From the IMG/VR virus record IMGVR_UViG_3300023179_000163, positions 1 through 48,733 of that record: 48,733 nucleotides of DNA; one strand, 5' to 3'. Each line of letters opens with the position of its first letter. The first letter of the stretch is position 1. Below, in pieces: positions 11,343 through 48,220 of the stretch. Position numbers and translations under genes: made by a program. This DNA is from a virus. The notes below the pieces were generated by a model. That model was not told the DNA's origin. It made no database searches and worked only from the letters and a program-made list of their open reading frames with translations.

Positions 11343-14300
11343 ATGGCACTAGTTGATTTAAAAACTAATTTAGCAGATTGGTCTGGACTTAAAAAGCCTT
11401 CAGACGCAAATCCTGCTGCAGTTAATTTTTTCGATGCCGGAGGAGTAAATTCGACAACCGGCGCTCGAGGGTTTACTAAAAATGCTGACGATGCAAATCA
11501 ATCAGACTTTTTAGGTATTTCATCAAATAATCAGCAATATAATTATCCAGCACAAGTTCGAGGAAACCGGCTGATGAAACCGTCAGCGACAGTAACTCAA
11601 TTTCCAGGTCCGCAAAATTTTATTAATGATGCGAATTCCGGAGCTCGAGGGTTTACTTTAGGAATGAATTCAACAAGGTTTTTAGGAATTGCCAATCCTA
11701 ATCAAACAGGCCAAGTTTTCAATTATCCTAGTTCAGTTCAGAATCGTAGATTAATGCAACCTGCAGGAGCTGTATTATTTCCAGGTCCACAAAATTTCAT
11801 TAACGATGTAAATTCCGGGCATGTAGGATTTCAACTCAATGCTGACAACGTAAATCAATCTAATTTCATTGGTATTTCCGGTCAAACATATACGTATCCA
11901 AACTTGGTAAGAGGTGGAAGACTAATGGCACCACTTCAATCTACGATATTTCCAGGCCCACAAAATTTCATTAACGATCAACAGTCAGGGGCAAAAGGTT
12001 TTACTTTAGGAATGAATTCAACTCAATTTCTAGGAGTATCTTCAAATGGGCAGTCTTATACATATCCAACATCTGTATTAAATGGAAGATTGATGCAGCC
12101 TTTGAATTCAAGTGCATTTCCAGGTCCGCAAAATTTTATAAGAGATATTCCATCAGGAGCTCGCGGGTTTACTTTAGGAATGAATTCAACAAGATTTATA
12201 AATGCTAATACAGTTGCTGGTACATATACATACCCAACTTCTGTATTAAGCGGACGATTAATGCAACCTCTCGGATCGTCTGTATTTCCAGGCCCGCAAA
12301 ACTTCATTAACGATCAACAGTCAGGAGCAAATGGATTTCGTCTAAATGCTAATAACGTAAACCAATCCAATTTCATTGGTATTTCCGGACAATCATATAC
12401 CTACCCAACTTCCGTTTTAAATGGAAGACTGATGCAACCTTTGAACTCGAGTGCGTTTCCAGGACCACAAAACTTCATTAACAATTCTGCTGCGGGTGCT
12501 AATGGATTTACTTTAGGAATGAATTCAACTCAATTTCTAGGAGTATCTTCGAATGGTCAACAATATACCTATCCTCAGTCAGTATTAGGTGGACGATTAA
12601 TGCAGCCTATAGGAAGTTTAACGTTAGTGACTAACTTTCCAGGACCACAAAATTTCATAAATAATAATTTATCAGGTGCTAGCGGATTTCGATTAAATGC
12701 TGGAGATACTCCGAACCAATCAGACTTTTTAGGTATTTCTGGTCAGACATATACATATCCTCAAACTGTTCGAAACGGCAGACTGATGCGACCTTCATTG
12801 TCGACAATAGCATTTCCTGGTCCACAAAATTTCTTCAATGATCAAGAGTCAGGTGTTAACGGATTTACTTTGCGAATGGCCGATCAGCCGGGTACAGAAA
12901 AATCAAAATTCATAGGAATATCTAATAATTCATATACGGCTCCTGCTACTAATCCAGCTGCAAATACTGTATTTGTATTGCCATTAACTTCGGCTACAGG
13001 TCCGACAGGTTGGAATCAAGCTCTTGCAGTTTTAAACAACCAATTAGGTCTTGGATCGCGATTTTATTATAAAACGGCAAATGGTCTTCAGTCAAAAATA
13101 TTTTCAAAAGAAGGCTATTCTGTTGGTAACAAATACAGTGACAATGTAAAAGGCGGTAAAGATGCTAACAATAGCGAACAAAGTTTACTTTACAAAAAAT
13201 CGACAGAGAAAAATTCTCCATCGGCTCTTGAAGAACAATATTCGCTTTTCAATTTACAAGACGATAGCTATAACCCATACGGTTACTTACCTCAACCGTT
13301 TATACTTCGAGGAATACAACGAAAATCTAATAAAAAACCTCAATATTGGGGAGTGTCTCCTTTATTAGATGATGGATTAATTCGCGGCGGCTCAACCGCT
13401 GCTTTAGAAATAGGTACTATTGATTTAGTTAGACTTGGCCAATGGGCAGCGACACCTAAAGGATTACTTTGGGTCGGTAAACAAGTAGGTTTAGGACTGA
13501 CAAATCCGCAAATGGAAACTGTCAATCCAGCTAACGTCTTATCACCAACTCCTATAGGCATTAGTCAAAATAGAATTCATACAGGATTGCAATCGTTACT
13601 TTCTGTACCGACTACTGCATTTGGATTACATTTTACGAGACATGGAATTCCGTTTGTTAATTACTTAACAGATTACGAACGAGTACAAAATCAACTTAAA
13701 ACGGTATATACAAACGTTACTCCTCAAGCCAATCGTCTTGTTAAGTTGAAATCGCAATTAATTGGAAAGCCAATATTGGCAACTGCAATTCCTTTCGAAG
13801 TCTCAACTGCATTAAATGTTATCTCGACAGTAACTGGAATTTCTATTCCTACACCGCTAGCGATTCCTACAATTCCTAAAGGCATTACTATTCCTGCTCT
13901 TTCATATCTTGGAGGACCGAATTCGGCATATGGAATAGGAGTAACTAACATAAAAAGAAGTGAAGATACCGTATCAGACGCATTAACAAATGCAGCGGGA
14001 TCAAATTTCAAATTGAAATATGATTTAAACAATTCATATGGATTAGCTAAATTTGACGAATTAACGGATGATAATGGACAAACTAAACTTTTAAATTATA
14101 AAAATTCATTAACTCAGTTAACTGCTACATATTTTAATATTGCAAATCGTAATGAAAAAAATCTAGATGACGTTGAGAGAGCTTCAAATACTGTGCGCCA
14201 GGCTTTAGATCAAGCTGCAAAACCAAATCCAGAAACAAATGAATCAGGATTTAAGCCGATTTATGATATTAGAAAACGTCTAGAGGATGTCGACGATAAA

Positions 14301-15110
14301 AAGTTAAAAGATTATTTACATACAACATATGGATTTGCACGTAGCAGAAAAAAGACTACTACATCTGCAGATCTTGATCCGAAGAAATTCATAGTACCTG
14401 GAAAAGATTTCAGCGGAAATAGTCCATATCAACTGTATAGCGATCCAGAACATCGCGGAGATAAAATAAATGCTATCGACTTTATTGATCAATATAAAAC
14501 AAGTCCATATCCAGATAATGGACCAAAAGACTTTATTAAATTTTATTTTGAAGATGCCGCGGCCAATACAAATGCTATGGTATTTCGTTGTACAATTAAT
14601 GGATTTTCAGATACATTTACTCCGAACTGGTCTAATATAGAAATTTTAGGCCGACCAGAAGGAGCTTATTTATATTCTTCGTTTGAACGTCAAATTTCAT
14701 TTAATTTTACAGTAGCCGCTCAGTCTAGATCTGAAATGATTCCTATCTGGAGAAAATTAAATTATCTAGCTACCTATACAATGCCAACGTATGCCAGCAA
14801 TCAAGCTGTCAAACCTTCCGGTCCATTTATGCGAATTACGCTAGGCGATTTATTTTATCAGACTCCAGGATTTATTAATTCATTGTCATATACAGTTCCA
14901 GACGAAGCTACATGGGACATAGGTCAATATGATTCCGGAGATGTTGACGCGAAACAACTACCGACTATTGTAGATGTTGCAGTAGGATTTACGTTGATAA
15001 CAGACTACCGTCCTCAACTTAAAGGTCGTGCGTATAGTTTATCGCCCGGAGGTACCTCAGCAGCAGGTACTAACGGGCAATGGCTCGCAGATTCTATATT
15101 TGCTCAATAA
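11343..15110 (+). CDS. Large baseplate/tail protein with nine tandem repeats
   Basis: 1255 residues, unusually long for a baseplate protein. Residues about 20-535 consist of one degenerate and eight clear repeats of about 55 residues, each opening with FPGPQNF(I/F)N and closing with YTYP..V..GRLMQP. Two types of middle alternate: GFTLGMNSTxFLG and GFRLNAxNVNQSNFIGIS. The C-terminal third (from about 1050: DFIKFYFEDAAANTNAMVFRC, then FSDTFTPNWSNIEILGRPEG, SFNFTVAAQSRSEMIPIWRKLNYLA) looks like a beta-rich domain of tail-tube/baseplate proteins. The position between tape measure and gp53-like wedge corresponds to T4 genes 48 and 54 (tube-to-baseplate connection), but direct homology is not shown. 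The repeats may be a surface-exposed or length-variable part of the baseplate. Confidence 0.75.
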   Translation: MALVDLKTNLADWSGLKKPSDANPAAVNFFDAGGVNSTTGARGFTKNADDANQSDFLGISSNNQQYNYPAQVRGNRLMKPSATVTQFPGPQNFINDANSGARGFTLGMNSTRFLGIANPNQTGQVFNYPSSVQNRRLMQPAGAVLFPGPQNFINDVNSGHVGFQLNADNVNQSNFIGISGQTYTYPNLVRGGRLMAPLQSTIFPGPQNFINDQQSGAKGFTLGMNSTQFLGVSSNGQSYTYPTSVLNGRLMQPLNSSAFPGPQNFIRDIPSGARGFTLGMNSTRFINANTVAGTYTYPTSVLSGRLMQPLGSSVFPGPQNFINDQQSGANGFRLNANNVNQSNFIGISGQSYTYPTSVLNGRLMQPLNSSAFPGPQNFINNSAAGANGFTLGMNSTQFLGVSSNGQQYTYPQSVLGGRLMQPIGSLTLVTNFPGPQNFINNNLSGASGFRLNAGDTPNQSDFLGISGQTYTYPQTVRNGRLMRPSLSTIAFPGPQNFFNDQESGVNGFTLRMADQPGTEKSKFIGISNNSYTAPATNPAANTVFVLPLTSATGPTGWNQALAVLNNQLGLGSRFYYKTANGLQSKIFSKEGYSVGNKYSDNVKGGKDANNSEQSLLYKKSTEKNSPSALEEQYSLFNLQDDSYNPYGYLPQPFILRGIQRKSNKKPQYWGVSPLLDDGLIRGGSTAALEIGTIDLVRLGQWAATPKGLLWVGKQVGLGLTNPQMETVNPANVLSPTPIGISQNRIHTGLQSLLSVPTTAFGLHFTRHGIPFVNYLTDYERVQNQLKTVYTNVTPQANRLVKLKSQLIGKPILATAIPFEVSTALNVISTVTGISIPTPLAIPTIPKGITIPALSYLGGPNSAYGIGVTNIKRSEDTVSDALTNAAGSNFKLKYDLNNSYGLAKFDELTDDNGQTKLLNYKNSLTQLTATYFNIANRNEKNLDDVERASNTVRQALDQAAKPNPETNESGFKPIYDIRKRLEDVDDKKLKDYLHTTYGFARSRKKTTTSADLDPKKFIVPGKDFSGNSPYQLYSDPEHRGDKINAIDFIDQYKTSPYPDNGPKDFIKFYFEDAAANTNAMVFRCTINGFSDTFTPNWSNIEILGRPEGAYLYSSFERQISFNFTVAAQSRSEMIPIWRKLNYLATYTMPTYASNQAVKPSGPFMRITLGDLFYQTPGFINSLSYTVPDEATWDIGQYDSGDVDAKQLPTIVDVAVGFTLITDYRPQLKGRAYSLSPGGTSAAGTNGQWLADSIFAQ
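11400..12960 (+). repeat. Nine tandem repeats of about 165-180 bases in a baseplate gene
   Basis: Each clear unit begins with TTTCC(A/T)GG(T/C/A)CC(G/A)CAAAA at about 11602, 11780, 11950, 12117, 12287, 12457, 12640 and 12807; a degenerate first unit precedes. Several units share long identical stretches, pointing to recent recombination between them. Confidence 0.85.
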
Positions 15111-18199: not shown

Positions 18200-19552
18200 A
18201 TGGAAATAATTGAGTCTGAAATCGAATTTTTTAATTTTATTGAAAAATGTAGTAAAGTTGATTGGATAGTAATACCCATATACTGTAACGGAGATAGACC
18301 TGTTTATGTAGATTCTATATCATTGGTGTATGTATATACACTTCATTTAGATAAAGACTTCATTATAGTATTCAATCACACTGAAGGAGCAAATTTATCA
18401 ATTGATCTTTTAAATAAATTTCCTACGGAAAATAAATTGTTTGTATATGACAAAAAACGATTTAAACGATCATGCACGAATAAAAATTTAATTGACATCA
18501 ATTTAATTGAATGGACGCAACGTAACAAACCTATTGATGATGAGTTTGAAACGACAGCACATGAATTTTATATAAAAAATTTCAATAAATTCAGTGATTT
18601 AAATTGCATTATTCCAATTTCAAAACATACAGAAAAATGCCAATCTATTGTCGAGAGATTTTTAAATGTATATGACTATTATCAACAAGACGAGTCATTT
18701 TCTGTATACAACGATCTTTTCATTGACAATTTATTTCAAATCGAGCAAAACGGATTGTTTACTTCATTTGATGCGTTTAAAACGAAATTCCCGCTATCAA
18801 AATTATATGATGGATTTTCATATACTGACTACAATATTTACACTACAACGGGCCGCCCTTCAAATCGATTTGATGGAATTAATTTCGCTGCTTTAAATAA
18901 AGACGATGGTACGCGCGCAGCGTTTATATCTAGATTTGGGGAAAATGGATTTATGGTGTCGTTTGATTACGATTCATACCACTTGCGATTGTTGGCAGAT
19001 TTAGTCGATTATAAATTTCCTGACAATTGTTCGGTACACGAGCATTTAGGAAAGTTTTATTTCGATAAGCAAGTTTTAAGTAAAGAAGAATATAATGAAT
19101 CGAAGGCAATATCATTTCGTCAGTTGTATGGAGGTATAGGAAAAGAGTATTTAACAATTCCGTTTTTTGCAAAAGTTTACGAATATACTAAATTGCTTTG
19201 GGAGCAATATTCAGAAAGCGGATATATAGAAACTCCTATGTTTTCTAGAAAATTATTTCAATCATTTTTTACGAACATGAATTCAGCTAAGTTGCTTAAC
19301 TACTTGCTGCAAGCATTCGAAACCGAGCGTAATATGGCCGTAATTCATAACGTACTTCAACGTACACAATCGTTTAAAAGCAAATTGGTATTATATACAT
19401 ACGATTCATTTTTATTTGATTTTAACAAAAATGACGGCGCGGAACTTATACGAATTATAAAAACTGAATTGGAACAAAATGGAAAATTTCCTACAAAAGT
19501 AGAAATAGGCCCGGATTATAACAATTTAATTTCAGTAAAAATACCAGAGTAA
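18200..19552 (+). CDS. Divergent family A DNA polymerase-like protein
   Basis: 450 residues from the ATG at 18200, which follows AAGGG by five bases; an in-frame ATG at 18185 lies inside the promoter box. The C-terminal half carries reduced polymerase I motifs. Motif A reads FMVSFDYDSYHLR with D256 in the catalytic position. Motif B reads K302AISF306RQLY310GG and fits KxxxFxxxYG, although the usual Arg four residues before the Lys is Tyr298. Motif C reads YTYD402SFLF where HDE is usual. Both metal-binding aspartates are thus present but the surroundings are much changed. The N-terminal 230 residues may derive from a 3'-5' exonuclease domain, but I cannot see its motifs. The phage also has a full family B polymerase at 39744, so this could be a repair enzyme, a primase substitute, or inactive. 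Confidence 0.75.
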   Translation: MEIIESEIEFFNFIEKCSKVDWIVIPIYCNGDRPVYVDSISLVYVYTLHLDKDFIIVFNHTEGANLSIDLLNKFPTENKLFVYDKKRFKRSCTNKNLIDINLIEWTQRNKPIDDEFETTAHEFYIKNFNKFSDLNCIIPISKHTEKCQSIVERFLNVYDYYQQDESFSVYNDLFIDNLFQIEQNGLFTSFDAFKTKFPLSKLYDGFSYTDYNIYTTTGRPSNRFDGINFAALNKDDGTRAAFISRFGENGFMVSFDYDSYHLRLLADLVDYKFPDNCSVHEHLGKFYFDKQVLSKEEYNESKAISFRQLYGGIGKEYLTIPFFAKVYEYTKLLWEQYSESGYIETPMFSRKLFQSFFTNMNSAKLLNYLLQAFETERNMAVIHNVLQRTQSFKSKLVLYTYDSFLFDFNKNDGAELIRIIKTELEQNGKFPTKVEIGPDYNNLISVKIPE

Positions 19553-19573: not shown

Positions 19574-19975
19574 TTGAATAGATTACACGAAGTGGTACAA
19601 TTAATTTGTTTATTTACGATAGAACCGCAACTAGATCATACTATTAGTATGATTGAAAAAACGTATGAAGTTGTATATAATAGAATTTTTATATTGTCAA
19701 TTGAAACATCTGAAGAGTTAATTTGCAGCTTCAATGTAGATAAGTCAAATTGCAAAAAACAATTGCCAGGCGCAATGCTTGTACATAGAAAAAAAGACTC
19801 AAATACATTGTATACAATAAATTCGCTAAATTCTTTAATACGTAAAGAAAATAATGGAATTTTAGACACGAATTATTCAATTGATTGGTCAAAATATTCT
19901 AATTCACTATTGATTACTTCAAATAGCGAGCTTAAAGTTCTTAAAACAAAAATATATCAAATTGTAAATTTGTAA
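19574..19975 (+). CDS. Conserved-looking hypothetical protein
   Basis: 133 residues from a TTG at 19574; no ATG is available upstream, and an ATT at 19556 is the only other likely start. The C-terminal half (MLVHRKKDSNTLYTINSLNSLI, then IDWSKYSNSLLIT) looks like a small alpha/beta protein that I have the impression of seeing near replication genes in other T4-type phages, but I cannot name it. The N-terminal part is hydrophobic (VVQLICLFTIEP). It lies between the family A polymerase-like gene and the SSB gene, so a role in replication is plausible from position only. Confidence 0.6.
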   Translation: MNRLHEVVQLICLFTIEPQLDHTISMIEKTYEVVYNRIFILSIETSEELICSFNVDKSNCKKQLPGAMLVHRKKDSNTLYTINSLNSLIRKENNGILDTNYSIDWSKYSNSLLITSNSELKVLKTKIYQIVNL

Positions 19976-20135: not shown

Positions 20136-20924
20136 ATGGCTATCAATTTAGATGCTATCAAAGCAAAACTTAATTCGTTGCAAACTGCAACGACAAAATC
20201 CAATAATCTTTGGAAACCGGAACCTGGTACGCAAGTTGTAAGAATAGTTCCTTATCAACATAACAGAGAAAATCCATTTACCGAACTTTATTTTCATTAC
20301 AATTTCGGAGGCAAAAACATTGTGTCTCCAATGTCATTCGGACGTCCAGACCCAATCGTAGAATTCGCAGAAAAATTAAAATCTACAGGAAATTCAGATG
20401 ATTGGAAAGCTGGTAAAAAATTAGAGCCGACAATGCGTTGTTACGTTCCAATTATCGTAAGAGGTAAAGAGTCTGAAGGCGTTAAATTCTGGGGTTTCGG
20501 AAAACAAGTATATCAAGAACTTCTTGCATTTATCACTGACGCGGATTATGGCGATATTACAGATCCAGTAGCAGGACGTGACATTACAGTTGAATTTAAA
20601 GCAGCTGATCAGTCAGGAAAAACATATCCTGAAACGTCTATTCGCGTAAAACCAAATCAAACTCCTATTACAGACAACAAAGCAATCTTGGAGAAATTGG
20701 CAAATCAACCAAAGTTAACTGACATTTTCAAAGAACATTCCTATGATGAAATGACGAAAATGCTGCATAACTGGTTAGATCCTGAAAATGCTCAGAATCA
20801 AGAGCAGTCAGCTCCGGCATCAGAAGGCAAAGTGTCAAAAAATAAAACGGCAATTGCCGAATCAGCTCCAAGCGCAAATGTCGACGACGTAGCGTCAGCA
20901 TTTGATTCACTATTTAACAAATAA
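20136..20924 (+). CDS. Single-stranded DNA-binding protein, gp32-like
   Basis: 262 residues. Coats single-stranded DNA during replication and recombination and recruits partner proteins. Features in order: short N-terminal region MAINLDAIKAKLNSLQ with basic residues for cooperativity; a core OB-fold part with NLWKPEPGTQVVRIVPY, ELYFHYNFGGKNIVSP and TMRCYVPIIVRGKE; a Ser/Pro/Ala-rich linker; and an acidic C-terminal tail VDDVASAFDSLFNK typical of SSBs that bind partners. The zinc-binding His-Cys-Cys-Cys cluster of T4 gp32 is not seen, as only one Cys lies in the core, so this is a zinc-less variant. It heads a run with UvsX, 5' exonuclease and helicase, the classical T4 replication-recombination set. 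Confidence 0.87.
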   Translation: MAINLDAIKAKLNSLQTATTKSNNLWKPEPGTQVVRIVPYQHNRENPFTELYFHYNFGGKNIVSPMSFGRPDPIVEFAEKLKSTGNSDDWKAGKKLEPTMRCYVPIIVRGKESEGVKFWGFGKQVYQELLAFITDADYGDITDPVAGRDITVEFKAADQSGKTYPETSIRVKPNQTPITDNKAILEKLANQPKLTDIFKEHSYDEMTKMLHNWLDPENAQNQEQSAPASEGKVSKNKTAIAESAPSANVDDVASAFDSLFNK

Positions 20925-20953: not shown

Positions 20954-22114
20954 ATGGCAAAATCAAAACAAATTGTCGAAGAAGCGCAGCTGCAGGACGA
21001 TTTAGCGTCAGTGTTAGCAGATAATCTTAATAAAAAGTTTAAAAGCTCTAATTATAAAGTAGCTTACTTTTTAGAAGGCGACTCTGACGCTCCGTCCGAT
21101 GTAACTGAGTGGATTTCGACCGGATCGACAATGCTCGATCTCGCAATCGCAAATCGACCAAATGGAGGTCTTCCTGTAGGTCGTATTATAGAAATAACAG
21201 GTTTAGAAGCCTCTGGTAAATCTTTATTAGCGGCTCATGCTCTGGCAGATACGCAGCGTAAAGGAGGCTTGGCAGTCTATATAGACACTGAAAATGCAGT
21301 ATCTCGAGAGTTTCTCGAAGCTATCGGAGTAAATTTAAAAGATATGCTGTATGTGCCATTGGAAACTGTTGAAGACATTTTCGAAGCTATTGAAAACATC
21401 ATTGAATCTATCCGTAAAGGATCGAAAGACAGAATTGTTACTATTGTTGTAGACAGCGTAGCTGGCGCATCAACAAAACAAGAAATGTCTGCAGATTATG
21501 ATAAAGACGGATGGGCAACTTCGAAAGCTATTATTCTTTCCAAAGCAATGCGTAAAATTACCAATTTTGTTGGTAGACAACGTATATGTTTAATTTTTAC
21601 AAATCAGCTTCGTACTCGCTTAGGAGTAACGTTCGGAGACCAATGGACTACGTCGGGTGGTAAAGCAGTTGCGTTTCACTCTTCAGTAAGACTTCGTCTA
21701 AAGTCTGTAGGGCAAATTAAATTAAAAGTCGATGGAGGAAGAGAAGAAGTTATGGGTATTACAACTCGTGCGCAAGTAGTTAAAAATCGAATGGGCCCTC
21801 CATTGCGAACTGTAGACTATGACATTTATTTCGATTCCGGAATTGATGATTATGGGTCATGGCTAACAATGTTGAAAACTCATAATTTAGTTTCGCAAGC
21901 CGGTGCTTGGTATACATATACTAATACAGATACCGGAGAAGTCGTTAAATTTCAGTCCAAAGACTTTAAATCAAAACTTATCGACGATCCGGAAATGAAA
22001 GCTCAAGTATATAAAACTATCTGTGAAAAGTATATATTGACTTACAAATCCGGAGAAGATTTCGGGGTTGATGATATAAAAATTGACACTGAGTTTGATT
22101 TAGAAGAATCATAA
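20954..22114 (+). CDS. uvsX: UvsX/RecA-like recombinase
   Basis: 386 residues. Forms a filament on single-stranded DNA and drives strand exchange for repair and recombination-dependent replication. Walker A GLEASGKS is at residues 83-90; the Walker B strand RIVTIVVDSVAG follows at about 155; ICLIFTNQLRTRLGVTFGDQWTTSGGKAV contains the conserved NQ sensor and the DNA-binding loop region. VVKNRMGPPLRTVDYDIYFDSGID is the typical end of the RecA core, followed by an acidic tail (DLEES). The gene lies 29 bases after the SSB, with a near-palindrome TCCTTTTAAAGGA at 20927-20939 between them, and 3 bases before the exonuclease gene. The symbol is given by analogy with T4. Confidence 0.93.
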   Translation: MAKSKQIVEEAQLQDDLASVLADNLNKKFKSSNYKVAYFLEGDSDAPSDVTEWISTGSTMLDLAIANRPNGGLPVGRIIEITGLEASGKSLLAAHALADTQRKGGLAVYIDTENAVSREFLEAIGVNLKDMLYVPLETVEDIFEAIENIIESIRKGSKDRIVTIVVDSVAGASTKQEMSADYDKDGWATSKAIILSKAMRKITNFVGRQRICLIFTNQLRTRLGVTFGDQWTTSGGKAVAFHSSVRLRLKSVGQIKLKVDGGREEVMGITTRAQVVKNRMGPPLRTVDYDIYFDSGIDDYGSWLTMLKTHNLVSQAGAWYTYTNTDTGEVVKFQSKDFKSKLIDDPEMKAQVYKTICEKYILTYKSGEDFGVDDIKIDTEFDLEES

Positions 22115-22117
22115 ATT

Positions 22118-23167
22118 ATGAAAGGTTACGTTGATTTATTACGACAAGTTCGCGAAGATCACGAAAAAGTAAGTTTAGGCCTCGATAAAAATGATAAAGT
22201 TTTAATTATCGATGGCCTAAACTCTTTTATTCGGGTATTTAGCGCATCTCCGATTGTTAACGACGATGGAGACCATATAGGCGGTTACATAGGATTTTTA
22301 CGGTCTATTGCTGCGGTTATTAGACAGTTTAAACCTACGAGATGTATAATGGTTTTTGATGGTAAAGGAGGATCTGCACGAAGAAAAAAGATGCATTCTG
22401 GATATAAAGAAGGCAGGTCAATGTCGACAAAATTTAATCGAATTGAAGACATTTCAGCTCAAACCGTAGAAGAAGAATTGGAATCTATGCGATTGCAAAT
22501 GGGTAAGCTGTCTGAATATTTGCAGTGTTTGCCAATTACAGTAATGTCGATTGATAATATCGAAGCCGATGATGCAATAGCATATTTAACGACAGAAGTG
22601 TTTCGTCCATTAAAACGAGACGTTATTATAATGTCCGATGATAAAGATTTTTTACAACTTGTAGATGCTAAAACTTCAGTTTGGAGACCTGTCGAAAAGA
22701 AATTTTATACACCAAAAGAAATTTACGAACGTTTTGGAATTCCTTCTCATAACTTTATACATTATAAAGTTTTTATGGGTGATGCTTCAGATAACATCAA
22801 AGGAATAAATGGAGTAGGAATAAAAACGCTGCAGACAAAATTTCCAATTTTATTAGGTGAAAATACAGTCTCGCTATCAGAATTAATAGAGTATTGCGCA
22901 AATCGTAAAGATGATCATAAAATTTATAAAACGGTACTTGACAGTGAGCATGTTATGCAGCTAAATTGGAAATTGATGTCTTTGGAAAATTTAGATATAT
23001 CAGCTCATTTTAAAATGTTAATTTCTGATATTGCAGATAGACCAATTCCTAAATTGGATACATATAATTTTAAAAAATTATTTATGCGAGATAAAGCATA
23101 CAGCGTAATTCCGAACGTGGACAGTTGGTTAGCTTCAGGATTTAATTCTTTATCTGCATTTCAGTAA
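22118..23167 (+). CDS. 5'-3' exonuclease / RNase H-type flap nuclease
   Basis: 349 residues. Removes RNA primers and flaps during lagging-strand synthesis. The metal-binding acidic clusters of the FEN/T4 RNase H family are present in order: VLIIDGLNSF (about residue 28), IMVFDGKGG with the following basic stretch ARRKKMHSGYKEGR, IEADDAIAYL, IMSDDKDFLQL, and FMGDASDNIKGINGVGIKTL, the helix-hairpin-helix region. It begins 3 bases after uvsX and so belongs to that operon. The N-terminal 25 residues before the first strand are longer than in typical members. A weak hairpin (TTGTTT/AAACAA) lies shortly after the stop. Confidence 0.9.
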   Translation: MKGYVDLLRQVREDHEKVSLGLDKNDKVLIIDGLNSFIRVFSASPIVNDDGDHIGGYIGFLRSIAAVIRQFKPTRCIMVFDGKGGSARRKKMHSGYKEGRSMSTKFNRIEDISAQTVEEELESMRLQMGKLSEYLQCLPITVMSIDNIEADDAIAYLTTEVFRPLKRDVIIMSDDKDFLQLVDAKTSVWRPVEKKFYTPKEIYERFGIPSHNFIHYKVFMGDASDNIKGINGVGIKTLQTKFPILLGENTVSLSELIEYCANRKDDHKIYKTVLDSEHVMQLNWKLMSLENLDISAHFKMLISDIADRPIPKLDTYNFKKLFMRDKAYSVIPNVDSWLASGFNSLSAFQ

Positions 23168-23218: not shown

Positions 23219-24577
23219 ATGGATAAATTAGTAAGCTATGGGCATTCGTTTCAAATAAAAATTATAACTTCATTACTTTCAGATAAACCTTTTTTACAAC
23301 AGGTATCTGATATATTATTACCAGAATTTTTTGAGTCAGAAGCAAATCAATGGATTGTAGAAACTATTGAAAAATATTTTCAAGAATATAAATCAGCTCC
23401 TACATTAGATGTATTTAAAATCAAAGTCAATGATGTAGAGCGTGACATTGTTAAATCGTCAATAATTGAATCTTTAAAAGATTCGTATAGATATTTAGAG
23501 TCGGAAGATTTAGATTTTGTTAAAGAAGAAACGCTAAATTTTTGTAAAAATCAATGTATAAAAAGAGCAATTCTCGATTCCGTAGACTTTTTAAATAAAG
23601 GTCAATATGAATTGATAAAATCTACAATTGACTCGGCAATGAAAGCTGGTGCTGATAAAGAAGTTGGGCATGAGTATAACTCTTCTGTTGAAGATAGATA
23701 TAAAGACAATATTAGATCTACAATCTCAACTCCATGGCCAGTTATTAATGATTTATCTGACGGAGGGTTTGGAAAAGGAGAATTAGTAGTATTTGTCGCC
23801 CCGGCCGGAATAGGAAAATCATGGGGGTTAATTAATATAGGAGCTAATGCTGTTAAACAAGGGTTAAATGTAGTTCATTATACTTTAGAGTTGAATGAAG
23901 GATATGTCGGTCAGCGTTATGATGCCGTGTTAACGGGAATTGCCAATCAAAATTTAAAGTATAATATTGAGGAAGTTCAAAATACAATTAATAAACTAAA
24001 AGGAAATTTGGTTATTAAGTATTATCCGACTAAGACAGCATCTTGCTCAACCATTCGAGCGCATATTGAAAAAATGATTTTAATAGGTAAAAAACCAGAT
24101 TTGGTTATTGTCGATTATGCCGATTTGTTAAAAGGAGCAGTTTCTAGAAAAGAAATGCGTCATGAATTAGAATCTATTTATGAAGATTTACGCGGTGTCG
24201 CCGGCGAATATGAAGTTCCTTTATTTACTGCAAGCCAAGCGAATAGGTCAGCATTAGAGCAAGACGTTATTGAAGCTGATAAAATATCTGAGTCATATGC
24301 AAAAGTAATGATCGCAGATTTCGTACTTTCGCTATCAAGAAAAGTAACTGATAAAATAGCAGGTACAGGAAGATGGCACGTAATTAAGAATCGTTTTGGA
24401 CCTGACGGAATTACTCTTCCTTCGAAAATGAATATGAGTAATGGTCAAATTCATATCTATGAAGAAACGTCGGTACAAGGAAAAGATACGGCTAAACAAA
24501 TGCAAAGTGGAGAAGAACTTCTGCGAAAAAGTTTATTACAAAAATATAAAGAAGTAGCATCAGATTCTTTAGGTTAA
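23219..24577 (+). CDS. Replicative DNA helicase (DnaB / T4 gp41-like)
   Basis: 452 residues. A RecA-fold hexameric helicase that unwinds DNA 5' to 3' at the fork. The N-terminal domain (to about 150) is helical as in DnaB. Walker A APAGIGKS lies at residues 194-201 after GGFGKGELVVFV; HYTLELNEGYVGQRYDA is the H1a region with the catalytic Glu; Walker B is PDLVIVDYADLL at about 288-299; PLFTASQANRSAL is the sensor segment. The C-terminal GTGRWHVIKNRFGPDG matches the last conserved motif. No primase gene was found in the window. It is followed by the ribonucleotide reductase pair. Confidence 0.92.
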   Translation: MDKLVSYGHSFQIKIITSLLSDKPFLQQVSDILLPEFFESEANQWIVETIEKYFQEYKSAPTLDVFKIKVNDVERDIVKSSIIESLKDSYRYLESEDLDFVKEETLNFCKNQCIKRAILDSVDFLNKGQYELIKSTIDSAMKAGADKEVGHEYNSSVEDRYKDNIRSTISTPWPVINDLSDGGFGKGELVVFVAPAGIGKSWGLINIGANAVKQGLNVVHYTLELNEGYVGQRYDAVLTGIANQNLKYNIEEVQNTINKLKGNLVIKYYPTKTASCSTIRAHIEKMILIGKKPDLVIVDYADLLKGAVSRKEMRHELESIYEDLRGVAGEYEVPLFTASQANRSALEQDVIEADKISESYAKVMIADFVLSLSRKVTDKIAGTGRWHVIKNRFGPDGITLPSKMNMSNGQIHIYEETSVQGKDTAKQMQSGEELLRKSLLQKYKEVASDSLG

Positions 24578-28818: not shown

Positions 28819-29364
28819 ATGGAATATCCAACATCGACAGTACAAAACGTTGTAGCCACACAATCAGAGGTGCTAAAGCCTAAAACTTTACCTGCCGATA
28901 TCGTATCTGCATTAAATGATAGAATTGCAGACGAATATACAGCACATTATTTTTATCGTTATGCAACTAATTGGTGTGCTGGAGTAAATTATCCTAACGC
29001 CGCTGCATTTTTTGCAAAAGAAGCAGCTGCTGAATTAGAGCACGCAGAAAAGCTTCAAAAGTATCTAGTAGATTGGAATGCTAATCCAATATTACCTGCA
29101 GTTAAATTTTCTGGAAAATTTGACAGCTTAATTGATATTGTTAATAAAGCGTATGCTATTGAATTTGATTTAGGAGAAAAGTACAATGAAATTTCTGTAG
29201 ATATATTTTCCATGCATTTACCGACATTTGATTTTCTTCAAGATTTTAGAGAAATTCAAACGCAATCCATTGCAGAATATTCAGATTTATTAAACGCTGC
29301 TCAGTTAATTGATGTAAGCAATAAGTTAGATTTACTCCACTATGAAGAAAGATATTTTAATTGA
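28819..29364 (+). CDS. Ferritin-like protein
   Basis: 181 residues, normal for bacterial ferritin. The protein would form a four-helix bundle that oxidises and stores iron. Ferroxidase ligands are recognisable: E39 (IADEYTAHYF), E72 with H75 (AELEHAEKL, ExxH), an acidic residue in helix C (FDLGEKYNE, E120) and in helix D (FREIQTQSIAEY, E145). The WNANPILP-like turn between helices B and C also fits. An N-terminal 20-residue extension precedes helix A. The gene lies between the ADP-ribosyltransferase and the 650-residue protein and overlaps the latter by 23 bases, so it is co-translated with putative injected proteins. Phage ferritins are uncommon; iron storage, protection of DNA from peroxide, or a structural role are all possible. 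Confidence 0.82.
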   Translation: MEYPTSTVQNVVATQSEVLKPKTLPADIVSALNDRIADEYTAHYFYRYATNWCAGVNYPNAAAFFAKEAAAELEHAEKLQKYLVDWNANPILPAVKFSGKFDSLIDIVNKAYAIEFDLGEKYNEISVDIFSMHLPTFDFLQDFREIQTQSIAEYSDLLNAAQLIDVSNKLDLLHYEERYFN

Positions 29365-32300: not shown

Positions 32301-32768
32301 ATGAAAAAATATCAATCAACAAAACTTTTCGATGGATTTAGTACAGTATTTCGGCAATGGGCTGCGGAAGGTACGCACTGTAAATATCTTCATGGCTATG
32401 ATGTAGAAATTAAAATAACTTTCGAAGGAGAGTTAGACCATCGCAATTGGGTTTGGGATTTCGGTGGAATGAAACGTGCTAAAGGAACTATTGATGGAAT
32501 GAATCCTAAAACATGGTTCGATTACATGTTCGATCATACTACCGTTATAGCTCCAGACGATCCAGAATTAGCAACTTTTCAAGAATTAGATAGGAAAAAA
32601 GTAATTCAATTAAGAATTCTTGAAGGTCCTGTCGGAGCTGAAAAATTTGCTAAATTCGTGTTTGATAAAGTTAACGCATTCATTTTAAATGAAACAAATA
32701 AAAGAGTACGAGTAGTGCGAGTAGAATTTTTTGAAAATAGAAGAAATAGTGCAATTTACGAAGAATAA
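32301..32768 (+). CDS. queD: 6-carboxytetrahydropterin synthase QueD
   Basis: 155 residues. Second step of 7-deazaguanine synthesis: converts dihydroneopterin triphosphate, made by FolE, into 6-carboxytetrahydropterin. Family marks: GTHC27KYLH31GYDVEI, with the catalytic Cys four residues before the zinc His; NWVWDFGGMK; the Asp-His pair in MFDHTTVI; GPVGAEKFAKFVFD; and the C-terminal VEFFENRRNSAIYEE ending in the pterin-anchoring Glu region. The second His of the usual HGH is Tyr33 and the first zinc His is not evident. This FRQW...THC..LHGY form is common in phage QueD proteins as far as I recall. It is followed by a small gene and queE. Confidence 0.9.
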   Translation: MKKYQSTKLFDGFSTVFRQWAAEGTHCKYLHGYDVEIKITFEGELDHRNWVWDFGGMKRAKGTIDGMNPKTWFDYMFDHTTVIAPDDPELATFQELDRKKVIQLRILEGPVGAEKFAKFVFDKVNAFILNETNKRVRVVRVEFFENRRNSAIYEE

Positions 32769-32776
32769 TTTAAAAT

Positions 32777-32995
32777 ATGAAAACAGTTTATAAAAATGAA
32801 ACTTACTATCGGCTTTCAGATAAAGAAGCTGATCGTCAAGTAAACGCTGGAATTGCGATGTATGCTCCTAAATCAGCTTGGAAAAACAAAGTACGCGACG
32901 CTAGCAAATTAATAAAAAGTCAGCCAGATCAATTAAATATTGATGAAGTTAAACAAACTAAAAAAACTAAAAATGTCAAAAATAAACGAAACTAG
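32777..32995 (+). CDS. Small basic protein between queD and queE
   Basis: 72 residues, strongly basic. The N-terminal half (VYKNETYYRLSDKEADRQVNAGIAMYAPKSAWK) looks like a small folded domain; the C-terminus is a Lys/Asn/Thr tail (KQTKKTKNVKNKRN). It starts 8 bases after queD, and its last 23 bases overlap the start of queE, so the three genes are co-translated. No family recognised; a DNA- or RNA-binding role would fit the charge but is speculation. Confidence 0.65.
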   Translation: MKTVYKNETYYRLSDKEADRQVNAGIAMYAPKSAWKNKVRDASKLIKSQPDQLNIDEVKQTKKTKNVKNKRN

Positions 32996-33824
32996 TCTGT
33001 TAATTTCATCTGACTTTTATTCGGTGCAGGGAGAAGGTATAAGTAGCGGAATACCGTCATATTTCGTTCGTTTAGGAAATTGCAACTTAACCTGTGGTAT
33101 GTCTCGTAAGTTTGCTAATCAACTAATGAAAGATCGATCTTTAGAAGACGGCGAAATTTTCGAAGGTGACTTACACAAGGAAGGAAAGGCAACATGGACT
33201 TGTGATAGTACATCTCAATGGTTATGGAGAGGTGAAGAAAAAGAGTTTCAATATTTGATTGATAGATGGAAAGAGCAAGGTATCTACGATGATATTAAGA
33301 ACGGTATTATCCATATTATTTGGACAGGTGGTGAACCTACGATCAAAGGACATCAGGAAGCAATTACAAATTTCTTAACATATTGGTATTCTCAAGAAAT
33401 ACAAAATTATGGTGTAGATTCAATACTTGCTTCATACCATGAAATTGAAACAAACGGAACAATTTATATTGAAGAACCTCTATTTAGATACTTAAATCAA
33501 ATCAACTGCTCACCTAAGCTATCTAACTCAGGTATGACTGAAAAGCAACGTATCAATCCAGACGCAATCAAGCGTATAATGCAACATCAAAACTACCAAT
33601 TTAAGTTCGTTATCAGCACAGAAGAAGACGTACAAGAATTGTTCCGTGACTTTGTAGTGCCATTTAACATACCACTTAAAAATGTAGTGTGTATGCCTGG
33701 ACTAGATGATGTAGCCAACTTCGAAGAGCGTACTCAATTCTGTCTTGAAATGGCTAAGAAGTATAAATTTAGAGGATTGACTAGATTACACATTGCCGCG
33801 TGGAATCAAGTATTAAATAAATAA
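32973..33824 (+). CDS. queE: 7-carboxy-7-deazaguanine synthase QueE (radical SAM)
   Basis: 283 residues from the ATG at 32973, chosen because it gives MSKINETSLLISSDFYSVQGEG, the standard QueE beginning; the open frame runs back to 32940. It rearranges 6-carboxytetrahydropterin to 7-carboxy-7-deazaguanine. Iron-sulfur ligands are C37 and C41 (GNCNLTCG) and probably C77 (WTCDS) after an inserted stretch, which is the long-spaced cluster seen in many QueE. IIWTGGEPTIKG is the SAM-binding GGEP motif; HEIETNGT and INCSPKLSNSG are the other conserved segments. By eye, Gly codon GGT and Phe codon TTC are more frequent here than in neighbouring genes, where GGA and TTT dominate, so it may be a more recent acquisition. 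Confidence 0.93.
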   Translation: MSKINETSLLISSDFYSVQGEGISSGIPSYFVRLGNCNLTCGMSRKFANQLMKDRSLEDGEIFEGDLHKEGKATWTCDSTSQWLWRGEEKEFQYLIDRWKEQGIYDDIKNGIIHIIWTGGEPTIKGHQEAITNFLTYWYSQEIQNYGVDSILASYHEIETNGTIYIEEPLFRYLNQINCSPKLSNSGMTEKQRINPDAIKRIMQHQNYQFKFVISTEEDVQELFRDFVVPFNIPLKNVVCMPGLDDVANFEERTQFCLEMAKKYKFRGLTRLHIAAWNQVLNK

Positions 33825-35073: not shown

Positions 35074-35709
35074 ATGACCAAAACACTAAAATACGGAAAT
35101 GATTCAATATCATTATCTAATGAAGAAAAAAGTCGTATAATTACCGAAGCGGCTAAACATTACGGGGAATTTTTAAAGTCGTTAAAGTTTGAAAATTTTC
35201 AAAATGACCCTAATATGGCCGATACACCGCGTCGCGTTGCTAAAGCGTTTGTAGAAGATTTATATCAAGGCTGTTATAATGCTCCGCCAAAAATCACTGC
35301 ATTTGATAATGTTGATAAGTATGACGGAGTTGTATTTCAAGGAAATATTACGGTAAATTCTACATGCAGTCATCATGCACTTCCTTTCGTTGGATATGCA
35401 CATGTAGCTTATATTCCATCGGCCGATGGTAAAGTAATTGGATTGTCTAAACTTAATAGAATTGTAGAATACTTCTCGAGAAGACCTCAGGTTCAAGAAA
35501 ACTTAACCACGCAAATACACAATTACATTAATGAAGTATGCGAAGGAAATAAAGGAGTAGCTGTAATGGTGTCAGCAAATCATATGTGTGCGTGCGTGAG
35601 AGGAGTAAGGCACGATTCGACAATGATGACATCAAAAATGTCAGGCGCGTTTTTAGATGATCCTGCGGCTCGTAATGAATTTTATCGTTTTGTTGATCAT
35701 TTGAAATAA
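35074..35709 (+). CDS. folE: GTP cyclohydrolase I (FolE)
   Basis: 211 residues. Converts GTP to dihydroneopterin triphosphate, the first step towards both folate and 7-deazaguanine. Zinc ligands C98 and H101 (VNSTCSHHALPF) and C172 (NHMCACVRG) are present; the family segments MADTPRRVAKAF, HVAYIPSADGKVIGLSKLNRIVEYFSRR, RPQVQENLTTQI and GVRHDSTMMTSKMSGAF are intact. It lies 7 bases after groES and 1 base before the next gene. With QueD and QueE in the same run it supplies the deazaguanine pathway rather than folate, by context. Confidence 0.95.
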   Translation: MTKTLKYGNDSISLSNEEKSRIITEAAKHYGEFLKSLKFENFQNDPNMADTPRRVAKAFVEDLYQGCYNAPPKITAFDNVDKYDGVVFQGNITVNSTCSHHALPFVGYAHVAYIPSADGKVIGLSKLNRIVEYFSRRPQVQENLTTQIHNYINEVCEGNKGVAVMVSANHMCACVRGVRHDSTMMTSKMSGAFLDDPAARNEFYRFVDHLK

Positions 35710-39057: not shown

Positions 39058-39228
39058 ATGGGACGTAAAAAGAAATACAATACACTTGAAGAAAAAAAAG
39101 AGGCACAAAAAAAATGGTGTAAAGAGTATTATGAGCGTAACAAAGAAATTTTAGATAAAAAAGCTAAAGAAAGATACTATGAATTACGAAAAAATTTACA
39201 ATCAAATAATAGACAGAGCAAAAAATGA
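39058..39228 (+). CDS. Small Lys/Tyr-rich protein upstream of the HNH endonuclease
   Basis: 56 residues. Begins MGRKKKYNTLEEKKEAQKKW and continues with KEYYERNKEILDKKAKERYYE. It is a paralogue of the 47-residue protein at 44987: the first seven residues are identical, the KKW...YYERNKE core is shared, and the DNA around the start (ATTGATATGGGACG) is the same. The sequence is basic and helical, similar to DNA-binding repeats seen in phage homing enzymes. The last 50 bases overlap the HNH gene in another frame, so the two are translationally coupled. I infer a DNA-binding partner or regulator of the endonuclease. It was found by reading the gap between the glycosyltransferase and the endonuclease. 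Confidence 0.7.
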   Translation: MGRKKKYNTLEEKKEAQKKWCKEYYERNKEILDKKAKERYYELRKNLQSNNRQSKK

Positions 39229-39743: not shown

Positions 39744-42347
39744 ATGGCATATCAAAATATAGCGTTTCAACGTAGTAAAAATTTAATAACAGTTTGGGAT
39801 GACAAAAATGGAATGCTGCAATTTCCATTTAAAAAGTATGCATATAAAAAAAATGCACATGGCCGTCACGTTACTCTTGACGGTTCAAGAGTTGAAAAAG
39901 TTGTAGATTGGGATGAGTCTGATATTCAACGCGGACTGATATACGAGTCAGATATTAATCCTGAAACGAGAACGTTAATTGACTTATACTTTGAAAATGA
40001 TGAACCTTCGGTAGGGCATAGAGAACTATTTATAGATATTGAAGTTTCTACCGAAGGCGGATTTGCAAATCCAGATGATCCATGGCAACCGCTAACATCA
40101 ATAGCATTTCATGATCGAGTAGGAAATAGATCAGTAGCTATCATTGTAGATAAAAAACGAAAATTAAAGCCGTATACAGATTCCAGTTTATTACTTGAAG
40201 TCGTTCAGACAGAATATGAATTAATTTCAAAGTTTCTTTCGCATTATATAGAAATACAGCCGTCTATTATTACAGGTTGGAATATTGAATTTTTCGACAT
40301 TCCATATCTTTATAACCGAATTGCAAAAGTAGCAGGTAAGCAATATGCAGACTCTATGTCTCCTTTAAATGAAGTGCTTTGGCTACCTCATCGAAACAGA
40401 TATAAAATTTTAGGAGTATCATGTTTAGATTATATGGCATTGTATAAACTATTTACATATTCTGAAGAATCAAGTTATTCATTAGAATCGATTTGTCAGA
40501 AAGAGTTAGGAAAAGGAAAAGTTAAATTTGAAGGTACTTTAGATCATTTATATAACAATGACCCTGAAAAATTTGTAGAGTATAACGTCAATGACGTAAC
40601 TCTAGTTTTAGAGCTTGACGAAAAATTAAAATTTCTTTCTCTGGCTCGAGGTATATGTCACAAAGGTCATGTCCCGTATGAAGATGTATATTTTACTACG
40701 AGATATTTAGATGGAGCATGTGTTACGTATATGAAACGTCTAGGAATTGTAGCGCCTAATCGAAAATTAAAAGATCATTCTGCAGATTCTAACGAAGAAT
40801 CATCTAATGATTTTGCTGGAGCTTATGTAAAAGATCCAATTCCAGGTTTATATGAATGGATTTTCGATGAAGATATGGCATCGCTGTATCCGTCAATTAT
40901 TCGTACATTAAATATTTCACCAGAGACAAAAATTGGCCGAGTTGAAAATTGGGATGATGTTAAAGATATTTTTTGGTCTAATTCATTAAGTAATGCAAAC
41001 GCAAAACTAAAATCAGGCTCGAAACATAATCTAATTCCAATGTCTGACTTTCGTAAATGGTTAGAAGACAATAAATTTTCAGTATCTTCAATAGGCGTAG
41101 TTTACAGCTGTCAGCAAAATGGTTTGATTCCTTCGATACTAGAAACTTGGATGAATGAACGTGAAGAGTATCGATCTTTATCAAAAAAATACGGAAATGA
41201 AGGAAATGCTGAAATGTCGAAATTTTTTGACTCTAGACAGCATACAATGAAAATTGTTAATAACAGTTTATATGGTGCGCTTGGAGCTCCTGGTTTTAGA
41301 TTTCATGATATTGACAATGCCGAGTCAATAACATTAACAGGGCAACAAGTAATTCGTCACGCAATGTCAAAAGGCAATGAATGGTTTATTAAACAGACCG
41401 GAGTTGATAAAGAGTATGTAATTTATGTCGATACCGATTCTAATTATTTTTCTGCAAAGCCAATTATCGACCTAATGGAACGTACGTTAAATAAGCAGTT
41501 AACTAAGCAAGAAAAAATAGATATAACATATAAAACTTCGCAAGTAGTTGAAAAATACATCAATGACTCATGGACTTTATTCGCTAAACATTATTTAAAC
41601 TCAGATCGTCCTTGCTTAAATATTAAACAAGAATACGTGTCTGAATCAGGAATATGGATAGCAAAAAAACGATACGCTCAAAAAATTATTTCTGAAAAAG
41701 GAATTTTAATTAAAGATTTAACTAAAGGCAAGAAAGAATGGAAGTTAGATGTAAAAGGTATGGATGTAGTTCGAAGTAACTTTCCAAAAGCATTTCGAGA
41801 GTTTATGTCTGGAATACTAGTCGACATCTTAAATATTTCTGATAAAAAGATCATTGATGATAAAGTATTAGATTTTCGTGAATCTATGAAAACTAAGCCA
41901 TTGTTTGATATTATGTTTCCGACCGGAGTTAAAGAATTAAAAAAATACTCTGTAAAAAAGTCTAAAGGTCAGACCTTTGGATTAAGACTTAAAGGTACGC
42001 CTATTCACTGTAAATCGGCATTGAATTATAATGATTTCATTGAACATTTTAACATTTCAACGACGCCTCCAATCGTTGAGGGAGAAAAAATTAAATGGAC
42101 TTATTTAAAGAATAATCCGTTTGGATTAGACACTTTAGCCGTAAAGGGTTTCGAAGATCCGGATCAAGTTATTTCATTTATTAAGCAGTATATAGACTAT
42201 GAAAAAATCTTTACAGCATCATTGGAAAATAAATTAGGAGATTTTTATAGTGCTTTGAAATGGGGGCAAATTCCAAAAAATTCAAATACATCAGACTTTT
42301 TTAGTTTTTTTATAAAATATGAATACAAAAACATTAGTAATCGTTAG
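39744..42347 (+). CDS. Family B DNA polymerase (T4 gp43-like)
   Basis: 867 residues, the main replicative polymerase. N-terminal 3'-5' exonuclease: FIDIEVS with D98 and E100 (Exo I), TGWNIEFFDIPYLYNRI (Exo II) and YNVNDVTLV (Exo III). Polymerase domain: motif A D377MASLYPSII, motif B MKIVNNSLYGALGAPGF, motif C YVD563TD565SNYFS. KGMDVVRSNFPKA follows in the thumb region. Shorter than some family members but complete in all catalytic parts, with no intein or intron. Its 3' end overlaps the second QueD-like gene by 29 bases, tying replication and base-modification genes together. A divergent family A polymerase is encoded 20 kb upstream. Confidence 0.95.
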   Translation: MAYQNIAFQRSKNLITVWDDKNGMLQFPFKKYAYKKNAHGRHVTLDGSRVEKVVDWDESDIQRGLIYESDINPETRTLIDLYFENDEPSVGHRELFIDIEVSTEGGFANPDDPWQPLTSIAFHDRVGNRSVAIIVDKKRKLKPYTDSSLLLEVVQTEYELISKFLSHYIEIQPSIITGWNIEFFDIPYLYNRIAKVAGKQYADSMSPLNEVLWLPHRNRYKILGVSCLDYMALYKLFTYSEESSYSLESICQKELGKGKVKFEGTLDHLYNNDPEKFVEYNVNDVTLVLELDEKLKFLSLARGICHKGHVPYEDVYFTTRYLDGACVTYMKRLGIVAPNRKLKDHSADSNEESSNDFAGAYVKDPIPGLYEWIFDEDMASLYPSIIRTLNISPETKIGRVENWDDVKDIFWSNSLSNANAKLKSGSKHNLIPMSDFRKWLEDNKFSVSSIGVVYSCQQNGLIPSILETWMNEREEYRSLSKKYGNEGNAEMSKFFDSRQHTMKIVNNSLYGALGAPGFRFHDIDNAESITLTGQQVIRHAMSKGNEWFIKQTGVDKEYVIYVDTDSNYFSAKPIIDLMERTLNKQLTKQEKIDITYKTSQVVEKYINDSWTLFAKHYLNSDRPCLNIKQEYVSESGIWIAKKRYAQKIISEKGILIKDLTKGKKEWKLDVKGMDVVRSNFPKAFREFMSGILVDILNISDKKIIDDKVLDFRESMKTKPLFDIMFPTGVKELKKYSVKKSKGQTFGLRLKGTPIHCKSALNYNDFIEHFNISTTPPIVEGEKIKWTYLKNNPFGLDTLAVKGFEDPDQVISFIKQYIDYEKIFTASLENKLGDFYSALKWGQIPKNSNTSDFFSFFIKYEYKNISNR

Positions 42348-44986: not shown

Positions 44987-45130
44987 ATGGGACGCAAAAA
45001 GAAATACACCAATGAGGAGCGTGTAGAAGCTCAGAAAAAATGGTCTAAATCTTACTACGAGCGTAACAAAGAAAAAATAAATAAAAAAGCAATGGAAAAG
45101 TATTATGAAACTAGAAAAAGTAATTTATAA
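44987..45130 (+). CDS. Small Lys/Tyr-rich protein upstream of the GIY-YIG endonuclease
   Basis: 47 residues. Begins MGRKKKYTNEERVEAQKKW and continues SKSYYERNKEKINKKAMEKYYETRK. It is a paralogue of the 56-residue protein at 39058, with nearly identical DNA around the start. Its last 26 bases overlap the GIY-YIG gene in another frame, the same arrangement as with the HNH gene. Basic helical repeats (YYERNKE, KYYETRK) suggest DNA binding. The recurrence of this small gene before two nucleases of different families is the best evidence that it is a real coding unit. Confidence 0.72.
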   Translation: MGRKKKYTNEERVEAQKKWSKSYYERNKEKINKKAMEKYYETRKSNL

Positions 45131-47506: not shown

Positions 47507-48220
47507 ATGGAAAAATCAAAATTTTTAAATTTCGTGTCTCGCTATCATTTAGCTGGTAATACAGATTCAGCTAAGTTAGTTGTTGAAGACAAAAAGCTGT
47601 CCACTAAATTTATTAGCTCGGACCAAAACGTAATCGGTGAAGTGCAATTAAAGACATTTGACTCAACTGATGCTGAATTAGGAGTATATACAACTTCGCA
47701 GCTTGTAAAAATGCTTTCGGCATTAGATGATCAAGTCGACATTACATTTGGCGAAGTAGATCGTAAAATTTATTCGATGAATTTCAAAGATAAAAATACC
47801 AATGTAACTTACATGTTGGCAGATTTGTCTGTAATTCGTCAGGTACCAAATTTAAAGACTCTTCCAGAATTCGACGTCAAAATTGAAATAAATAAAGATT
47901 TTGCTTCTTCTTTTAAGAAAGCGGCAAACGCACTTCCCGAGTCAGATAACTTCGGCGTTGAAAGTAATGGAACTGACACAAAAATTATTATCAATCACTC
48001 GAGTGTTAATACAAATAGAATTGTATTTAAAACTACTACGACTGCAGCAGCAGCAATGGATACAGTTTGCTTTTCAGCAAAACTATTCAAAGAAATACTT
48101 AATGCAAATGCTGATGCGACTGGGTTGTTAGAAGTTTCGTCTAAAGGTTTAGCTCGAGTGACTTTTGAAAATGCAGACTTCTCTTCAGTATATTATTTAG
48201 TTAAATTGACAGTTTCTTAA
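47507..48220 (+). CDS. DNA polymerase sliding clamp (T4 gp45-like)
   Basis: 237 residues, the size of T4 gp45, which forms a trimeric ring around DNA and tethers the polymerase; in T4 it also activates late transcription. Family pattern: KFLNFVSRYHLAGNTDSAKLVVEDKKLSTKF at the start, GVYTTSQLVKMLSALDDQVDITFGE, YMLADLSVIRQVPNLKTLPEFDVKIEINKDFASSFKKAANALPES in pieces, and the C-terminal strands ending SSVYYLVKLTV. A conserved-looking basic inner helix (SSFKKAANAL) would face DNA. It has its own host-type promoter. Clamp-loader genes are not in the window. If late transcription uses the clamp as in T4, this gene links replication to the class B promoters. Confidence 0.87.
   Translation: MEKSKFLNFVSRYHLAGNTDSAKLVVEDKKLSTKFISSDQNVIGEVQLKTFDSTDAELGVYTTSQLVKMLSALDDQVDITFGEVDRKIYSMNFKDKNTNVTYMLADLSVIRQVPNLKTLPEFDVKIEINKDFASSFKKAANALPESDNFGVESNGTDTKIIINHSSVNTNRIVFKTTTTAAAAMDTVCFSAKLFKEILNANADATGLLEVSSKGLARVTFENADFSSVYYLVKLTVS

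Follow-up and report, generated by a model that had tools for sequence, protein, structure and literature searches.

A divergent, thumb-truncated family A DNA polymerase of the divPolA1 family and its near-obligate small partner in a viral genome fragment

Introduction

Why should a virus that encodes a complete family B DNA polymerase also keep a second, highly divergent polymerase of family A? This question is raised by the gene at 18200-19552 of a 48,733-nucleotide stretch of viral DNA (IMG/VR record IMGVR_UViG_3300023179_000163; the whole stretch is referred to here as the window). A preliminary description, made from the letters alone, had read the gene as a divergent family A polymerase that opens a replication block under its own host-type promoter, and had proposed that the product might be a repair or translesion enzyme adapted to 7-deazaguanine-containing templates, or else a relic used as a scaffold. 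Here we ask to which family the gene belongs, whether its product is likely to be active, with which genes it travels, and what it might do beside a regular replicative polymerase.

Results

The gene is an intact plus-strand ORF coding for 450 amino acids, and its start codon at 18200 is in line with the starts in relatives. The product matches the Pfam family DNA_pol_A (PF00476) with 38.5 bits against a curated cut-off of 34.3 (E 8.8e-10), and scores 24 bits against the cut-off of 720 of the NCBIfam equivalog for DNA polymerase I (PolA1). Its nearest annotated relative is a protein of the Flavobacterium phage immuto, labelled ‘DNA polymerase family A’ (QQO91919), to which it is 34.8% identical; the homology is full-length, since tblastn against the immuto gene covers 92% of the query (E 2e-67). 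The immuto protein is the founder of divPolA1 (Yutin et al. 2024, Virol J 21:200; PMC11348598), a family defined as a divergent PolA that accompanies a regular polymerase, whether of family A, B or C, and in which palm residues are kept, the thumb is truncated, the 3'-5' exonuclease is inactivated and replication genes lie downstream (PMC11348598). All of these traits that can be tested in the window are found in its ORF which, judged by sequence, is a new member of this known family (Table 1). The published census of divPolA1 comprised 14 genomes of 155-190 kb (PMC11348598). The distribution of the family is wider, with at least 574 matching IMG/VR stretches, together with seven MAG contigs, the Microcystis phage Mel-JY01 and one phage of 484 kb; the window itself is a 48.7-kb fragment.

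Table 1 Features of the divPolA1 locus and of the replication genes in the window.
Feature	Position	Strand	Evidence
divPolA1, family A polymerase	18200..19552	+	PF00476, relative immuto, AlphaFold2 model
Degenerate 3'-5' exonuclease-like domain, ~residues 1-160	18200..18679	+	aligned to Klenow exonuclease domain
Truncated thumb, E182 to R219 (TGRPSN motif)	18743..18856	+	alignment and model
Motif A: D256 (18965-18967), H261 (18980-18982)	18953..18988	+	D 178/178, H 178/178
Motif B (O helix): Y298, K302, F306, Y310, G311	19091..19132	+	pooled alignment counts
Motif C: Y399-x-Y401-D402-S403-x3-D407	19394..19420	+	pooled alignment counts
sm127, 127 aa, probable GTG start	19592..19975	+	linkage to divPolA1
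gp32-type single-strand DNA-binding protein	20136..20924	+	PF08804 1.8e-13
UvsX-type recombinase	20954..22114	+	phrog_97 1.3e-72
Stand-alone 5'-3' (FEN/Pol I-type) exonuclease	22118..23167	+	PF02739 6.7e-32
DnaB-type replicative helicase	23219..24577	+	phrog_19 4.5e-78
Regular family B DNA polymerase	39744..42347	+	PF00136 2.8e-32, phrog_262 1.3e-175
Sliding clamp (processivity factor)	47507..48220	+	phrog_223 9.6e-13

To follow individual residues through the family, we pooled 179 homologues (less than 95% identity; median pairwise identity 33%) from three retrievals, which used patterns of motifs A and C, a segment outside motifs A-C, and a neighbouring gene, the latter two imposing no selection for the motif A and C aspartates. 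Profile alignment to the E. coli Klenow fragment equates D256, K302, F306, Y310 and D402 with D705, K758, F762, Y766 and D882, and reveals Y298 and Y401 as replacements of R754 and H881. The residues that the preliminary description had listed as kept (D256, D402 and K302/F306/Y310) or replaced (Tyr for the His of motif C and for the Arg of motif B) are therefore the same in this alignment. The motif A aspartate is present in 178/178 and the motif C aspartate in 177/177 of the pooled sequences, the few others being gapped there, and the counts are equally complete in the retrievals by the outside segment (78/78 and 75/75) and by the neighbouring gene (65/65 and 66/66). Free replacement of the two aspartates among homologues, which had been named as the sign of a lost polymerase activity, is thus not what this check found, and activity stands unrefuted; with the Pfam match above cut-off, the invariant aspartates bear out the reading of a divergent family A polymerase with its catalytic core kept.

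The other motif positions are conserved to differing degrees. Within motif B, K302 and Y310 are each found in 178 of the 179 homologues and F306 in 173, with Met in the remaining six (KSITMRQLYG in a small subgroup comprising loci L103, L109, L112, L123, L127 and L147), and residue 298 is Tyr in 131/179. Within motif C, Y401, D402 and D407 are found in 177/177, and residue 403 is Ser or Ala. Overall, the catalytic Asp, Lys, Tyr and Gln are invariant across 177-178 sequences. The motif C Ser is unremarkable, because several of the phage PolAs compared likewise have HDS, and because the Tt72 phage polymerase, with a natural Ser at the E883 position, is active; the Tt72 enzyme retains 76% activity with Ala at that position and 35% with Ala in place of its counterpart of E710, but cannot do without the counterparts of D256 and D402 (PMC9324360). 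Measured against a 95% identical relative, the gene has a dN/dS of ~0.055. The divPolA1 gene is thus strongly constrained and its product very probably catalytic, and we infer that divPolA1 is an active enzyme; our literature search found no biochemistry of any divPolA1. Loss of R754 and H881, together with a change of E710 to His, could lower the use of dNTPs or alter the substrate.

An AlphaFold2 model built on 54 homologues reached a mean pLDDT of 94.7. Its best fold matches in the PDB include the Klenow fragment (matched over its full length), Pol theta and Pol nu, and the structural alignments give 12-16% identity between divPolA1 and other PolAs. In the exonuclease-like domain, the positions of D355 and E357 are occupied by P26 and Y28, and the residues listed there across the 179 homologues are non-acidic; sequence does not place D424 firmly, its position falling on D84 or F88 (residue 84 varies between D, N, A, S and G), and the D501 equivalent comes from a low-confidence alignment. 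The loss of D355 and E357 alone should be enough to inactivate the 3'-5' exonuclease. In the thumb, the span from IE.NG to TGR measures 38 residues versus 128 in Klenow, the stretch from E182 to R219 has 24-44 residues in all homologues, and the model contains a single short helix (190-196). The degenerate exonuclease domain and the truncated thumb, like H261 and the partner ORF at 19592-19975, had been absent from the preliminary description.

In family A polymerases, the Glu of motif A (E710 of E. coli Pol I, E615 of Taq) acts as a steric gate against ribonucleotides. The corresponding position (H261 in the window) is His in 178/178 divPolA1 homologues and Glu in the 11 ordinary PolAs compared. 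Neither this His nor a steric gate is brought up in the main text of PMC11348598, and relative to that main text and its preprint, the sole published work that our search turned up on the family, the family-wide His is new. From an invariant His at this gate follows a clear prediction that can be put to an enzyme assay.

The genomic surroundings of divPolA1 are strikingly constant. As the preliminary description had it, the gene opens a replication block, heading genes for gp32, UvsX, the 5'-3' exonuclease and DnaB; all four lie downstream of divPolA1 in 60/66 loci, and the exonuclease does so in 63/66. The six best relatives of this exonuclease among phage records come from exactly the divPolA1 phages, after which scores drop from 226 to ~105 bits. 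A regular polymerase accompanies divPolA1 in 18 of 19 records: it is of family B in 17 and a full-length family A enzyme in immuto, and none was found in one fragment. The 484-kb divPolA1 phage has PolC in addition to family B. In the window, the family B polymerase is complete (DMASLYP, YVDTDS); it had been described as lying beside the family A gene, and in fact lies within the window at a distance of ~20 kb. The host-type promoter could not be upheld, as 17 sigma-70-like sites were found where 18.6 are expected by chance. What remains of the preliminary observation is thus the ORF, its residues, the family B polymerase and the replication block, without the promoter.

Several further observations concern these regions. 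The commonest intergenic 8-mer of the window, ATATTTAT, occurs 14 times on the gene strand and its reverse complement not once; its sites (e.g. 18179, 19554, 19981, 27706, 31312 and 47482) often lie 18-45 nt before a start codon, it also precedes sm127 in most relatives checked, and it is possibly a phage promoter element. An HNH homing endonuclease gene with NUMOD3 (39179-39742) directly precedes the family B polymerase of the window, and a GIY-YIG homing endonuclease gene with NUMOD3 (45105-45815) stands before GroEL. PolB matches are split at G011:C1:69652-71978 and W03:C1:260623-266900, one with internal stops and one extending over 6 kb, perhaps reflecting introns, inteins or split genes. 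Mel-JY01 (L010) encodes, at 13760-15046 between its sm127 homologue and gp32, a protein of 428 amino acids that matches an S-adenosylmethionine lyase domain (PF23780, E 4.4e-10). Elsewhere in the window, a 1255-aa protein (11343-15110), whose first half consists of ~60-aa repeats (FPGPQNFIND..SGA.GFTLGMNST.F), is probably structural, and a ferritin-like protein (28819-29364; PF00210, E 2.6e-20) is encoded in the phage nucleotide-metabolism region.

A small protein, which we call sm127, is encoded between divPolA1 and gp32 in the window; its GTG start is probable, as judged by the aligned start codons of relatives. Among loci with at least 4 kb of downstream DNA, sm127 lies downstream of divPolA1 in 96 of 97, and in the reverse test divPolA1 was found upstream in all 34 sm127-retrieved loci with enough upstream DNA. 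The two genes occur in the same six of 50,697 phage records, of 20 large records with divPolA1, 19 also have sm127, and 141 loci each have one homologue. Adjacency is not required, the number of genes between the two being variable. The sole divPolA1 locus with enough downstream DNA yet no sm127 is L007 (G001), where the gene is found nowhere in the 130-kb contig. We conclude that sm127 is a near-obligate partner of divPolA1, a pairing that is new relative to the main text of PMC11348598 and its preprint. Residues N48, R66, K68, Y74, N77, N80 and W99 are invariant in sm127, and a basic motif, H-R-K-K, is nearly so. Searches of Pfam, PHROGs and NCBIfam gave chance-level matches only, and neither sequence nor fold (model mean pLDDT 94.6) found a significant match in the PDB. 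Distance covariation was moderate and is confounded by shared ancestry, with partial correlations of 0.35 between polymerase and sm127, 0.37 between polymerase and exonuclease and 0.44 between polymerase and gp32 (UvsX was also in the set). The near-perfect pairing makes this unstudied 127-aa protein a concrete, testable candidate subunit.

Discussion

What, then, might a second polymerase do in these phages? That divPolA1 is kept while the regular polymerase switches family suggests a job beyond that of the standard replicases. Lacking both proofreading and a long thumb, divPolA1 alone would be expected to be poorly processive and to make errors, and genome copying therefore better fits the regular polymerase. 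The most likely reading, to which we give about even chances, is that divPolA1 is an accessory polymerase for RNA primer replacement or short gap filling. As for its make-up, the best explanation includes, at a similarly balanced level of confidence, an active, proofreading-deficient, short-thumb polymerase that works with sm127 and heads a replication-recombination operon. Under this scheme, the genome would be copied by the regular polymerase, which belongs to family B here and to family A in immuto, and which in the window would work with the sliding clamp encoded at 47507-48220; divPolA1, with low processivity and no exonuclease, would synthesise DNA over short stretches. Bacterial Pol I unites two activities in a single polypeptide, and divPolA1 and the stand-alone 5'-3' exonuclease would provide them as a pair: the exonuclease would take away RNA primers or short lengths of damaged strand, and divPolA1 would replace them. 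The partner sm127 may stabilise divPolA1 on DNA or recruit it, standing in for the missing thumb. Many T4-type phages use a 5'-3' exonuclease of the RNase H type yet have no second polymerase, and primer replacement is for this reason not proven by the exonuclease neighbour alone. Bacteria that lack Pol I mostly have a stand-alone 5'-3' exonuclease (PMC12926913).

Ranked second, and appreciably less probable, is a translesion or recombination-repair polymerase which, free of exonuclease, would extend joints made by UvsX or bypass damage. The lost exonuclease site, the truncated thumb and the UvsX and gp32 neighbours all fit such a role, as does the best fold match, to Pol theta, with Pol nu also scoring high, both of them enzymes known for bypass or end-joining. 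However, Klenow reaches scores as high as those of theta and nu, making the fold ranking unspecific, linkage to the replication genes is equally strong, and divPolA1 is kept in nearly all of the lineage, above what would be expected of an optional repair function.

It is also conceivable, though unlikely, that the His gate admits rNTPs and that divPolA1 is a relaxed-sugar enzyme whose products would be primers, short transcripts or strands of mixed composition. The family-wide His, at the very residue (E710/E615) that blocks ribonucleotides in family A and that is Glu in ordinary PolAs, points this way, as do the members with Met at the F762 position, the residue that T7 RNA polymerase has there. 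Nevertheless, most members keep Phe at that position and nearly all the equivalent of Y766; the bulk of His may still keep out a 2'-OH; a search of 20 divPolA1 records found DnaG-type primases in eight, immuto and Mel-JY01 among them; and an N-terminal domain of the ssRNAP type is absent. Profile alignment detected no homology to the single-subunit T7 RNA polymerase (hhalign probability 0.1), and the matches listed by the PDB fold search are DNA polymerases. Similarly doubtful, but bold enough to state, is the idea of an obligate two-protein polymerase: sm127 would take the place of the thumb in divPolA1, and the His would let ribonucleotides in; if true, this would be a natural family A enzyme making or extending mixed RNA/DNA strands at phage replication forks.

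It is improbable that divPolA1 acts as the main or the lagging-strand replicase, with sm127 conferring processivity and the regular polymerase in an auxiliary role. It is divPolA1, not the regular polymerase, that sits in the conserved replication operon, and the regular polymerase is of family A or B depending on the member, a point similar to one made by the discoverers of divPolA1 (PMC11348598). Yet the losses of thumb and proofreading make divPolA1 an unlikely main replicase, and the window carries genes for a sliding clamp and for an intact family B polymerase of the T4 replicase type.

Adaptation to 7-deazaguanine-containing templates, as first proposed, now seems very improbable. Homologues of QueD, QueE and FolE are encoded in the window (32301-32768, 32940-33824 and 35074-35709), which suggests 7-deazaguanine metabolism, and immuto has QueC, QueD, QueE, QueF, FolE and DpdA. 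However, a strong queE match was found in only 7 of 19 divPolA1 records, with a weak one in two, most of these records being fragments, and neither the 484-kb phage nor the complete genome of Mel-JY01 gave any; since queE is so patchy, the polymerase is not tied to the modification. With the DpdA family as query, a search of limited sensitivity found a match only in immuto and none in the window, itself a fragment (the Pfam TGT model was useless as a detector, as it misses the DpdA of immuto too). The remaining proposal, a catalytically dead relic or scaffold, draws on the replacement of several Pol I contact residues and is scarcely credible in the face of the invariant active site and the low dN/dS. 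What survives of the original interpretation is, in short, the family A enzyme with its core kept, without the relic or the adaptation to modified templates.

The accessory polymerase proposed here can be set against four known systems. With the divPolA1 proteins already described, the window protein shares the truncated thumb, the lost exonuclease site and the kept palm, as well as replication genes downstream and a regular polymerase encoded by the same genome (PMC11348598). With E. coli Pol I (Klenow), it shares the fold and equivalents of D705, D882, K758, F762, Y766, R668 and Q849, but divPolA1 lacks the long thumb helices and the acidic residues of the exonuclease, and has His for E710, Tyr for R754, Tyr for H881 and Ser for E883. 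The divPolA2 of barbaviruses is likewise a second, thumb-reduced and exonuclease-less PolA beside a regular PolB, but has a variable gene neighbourhood (PMC11348598); homology between the two families was not detectable (hhalign probability 0.4). Finally, the APEX/PolA2 of Actinobacteria is also a second PolA with an eclipsed 3'-5' exonuclease and is thought to be of low fidelity, but it is cellular, carries a beta-clamp motif in its vestigial exonuclease, and has no thumb truncation described (PMC12926913).
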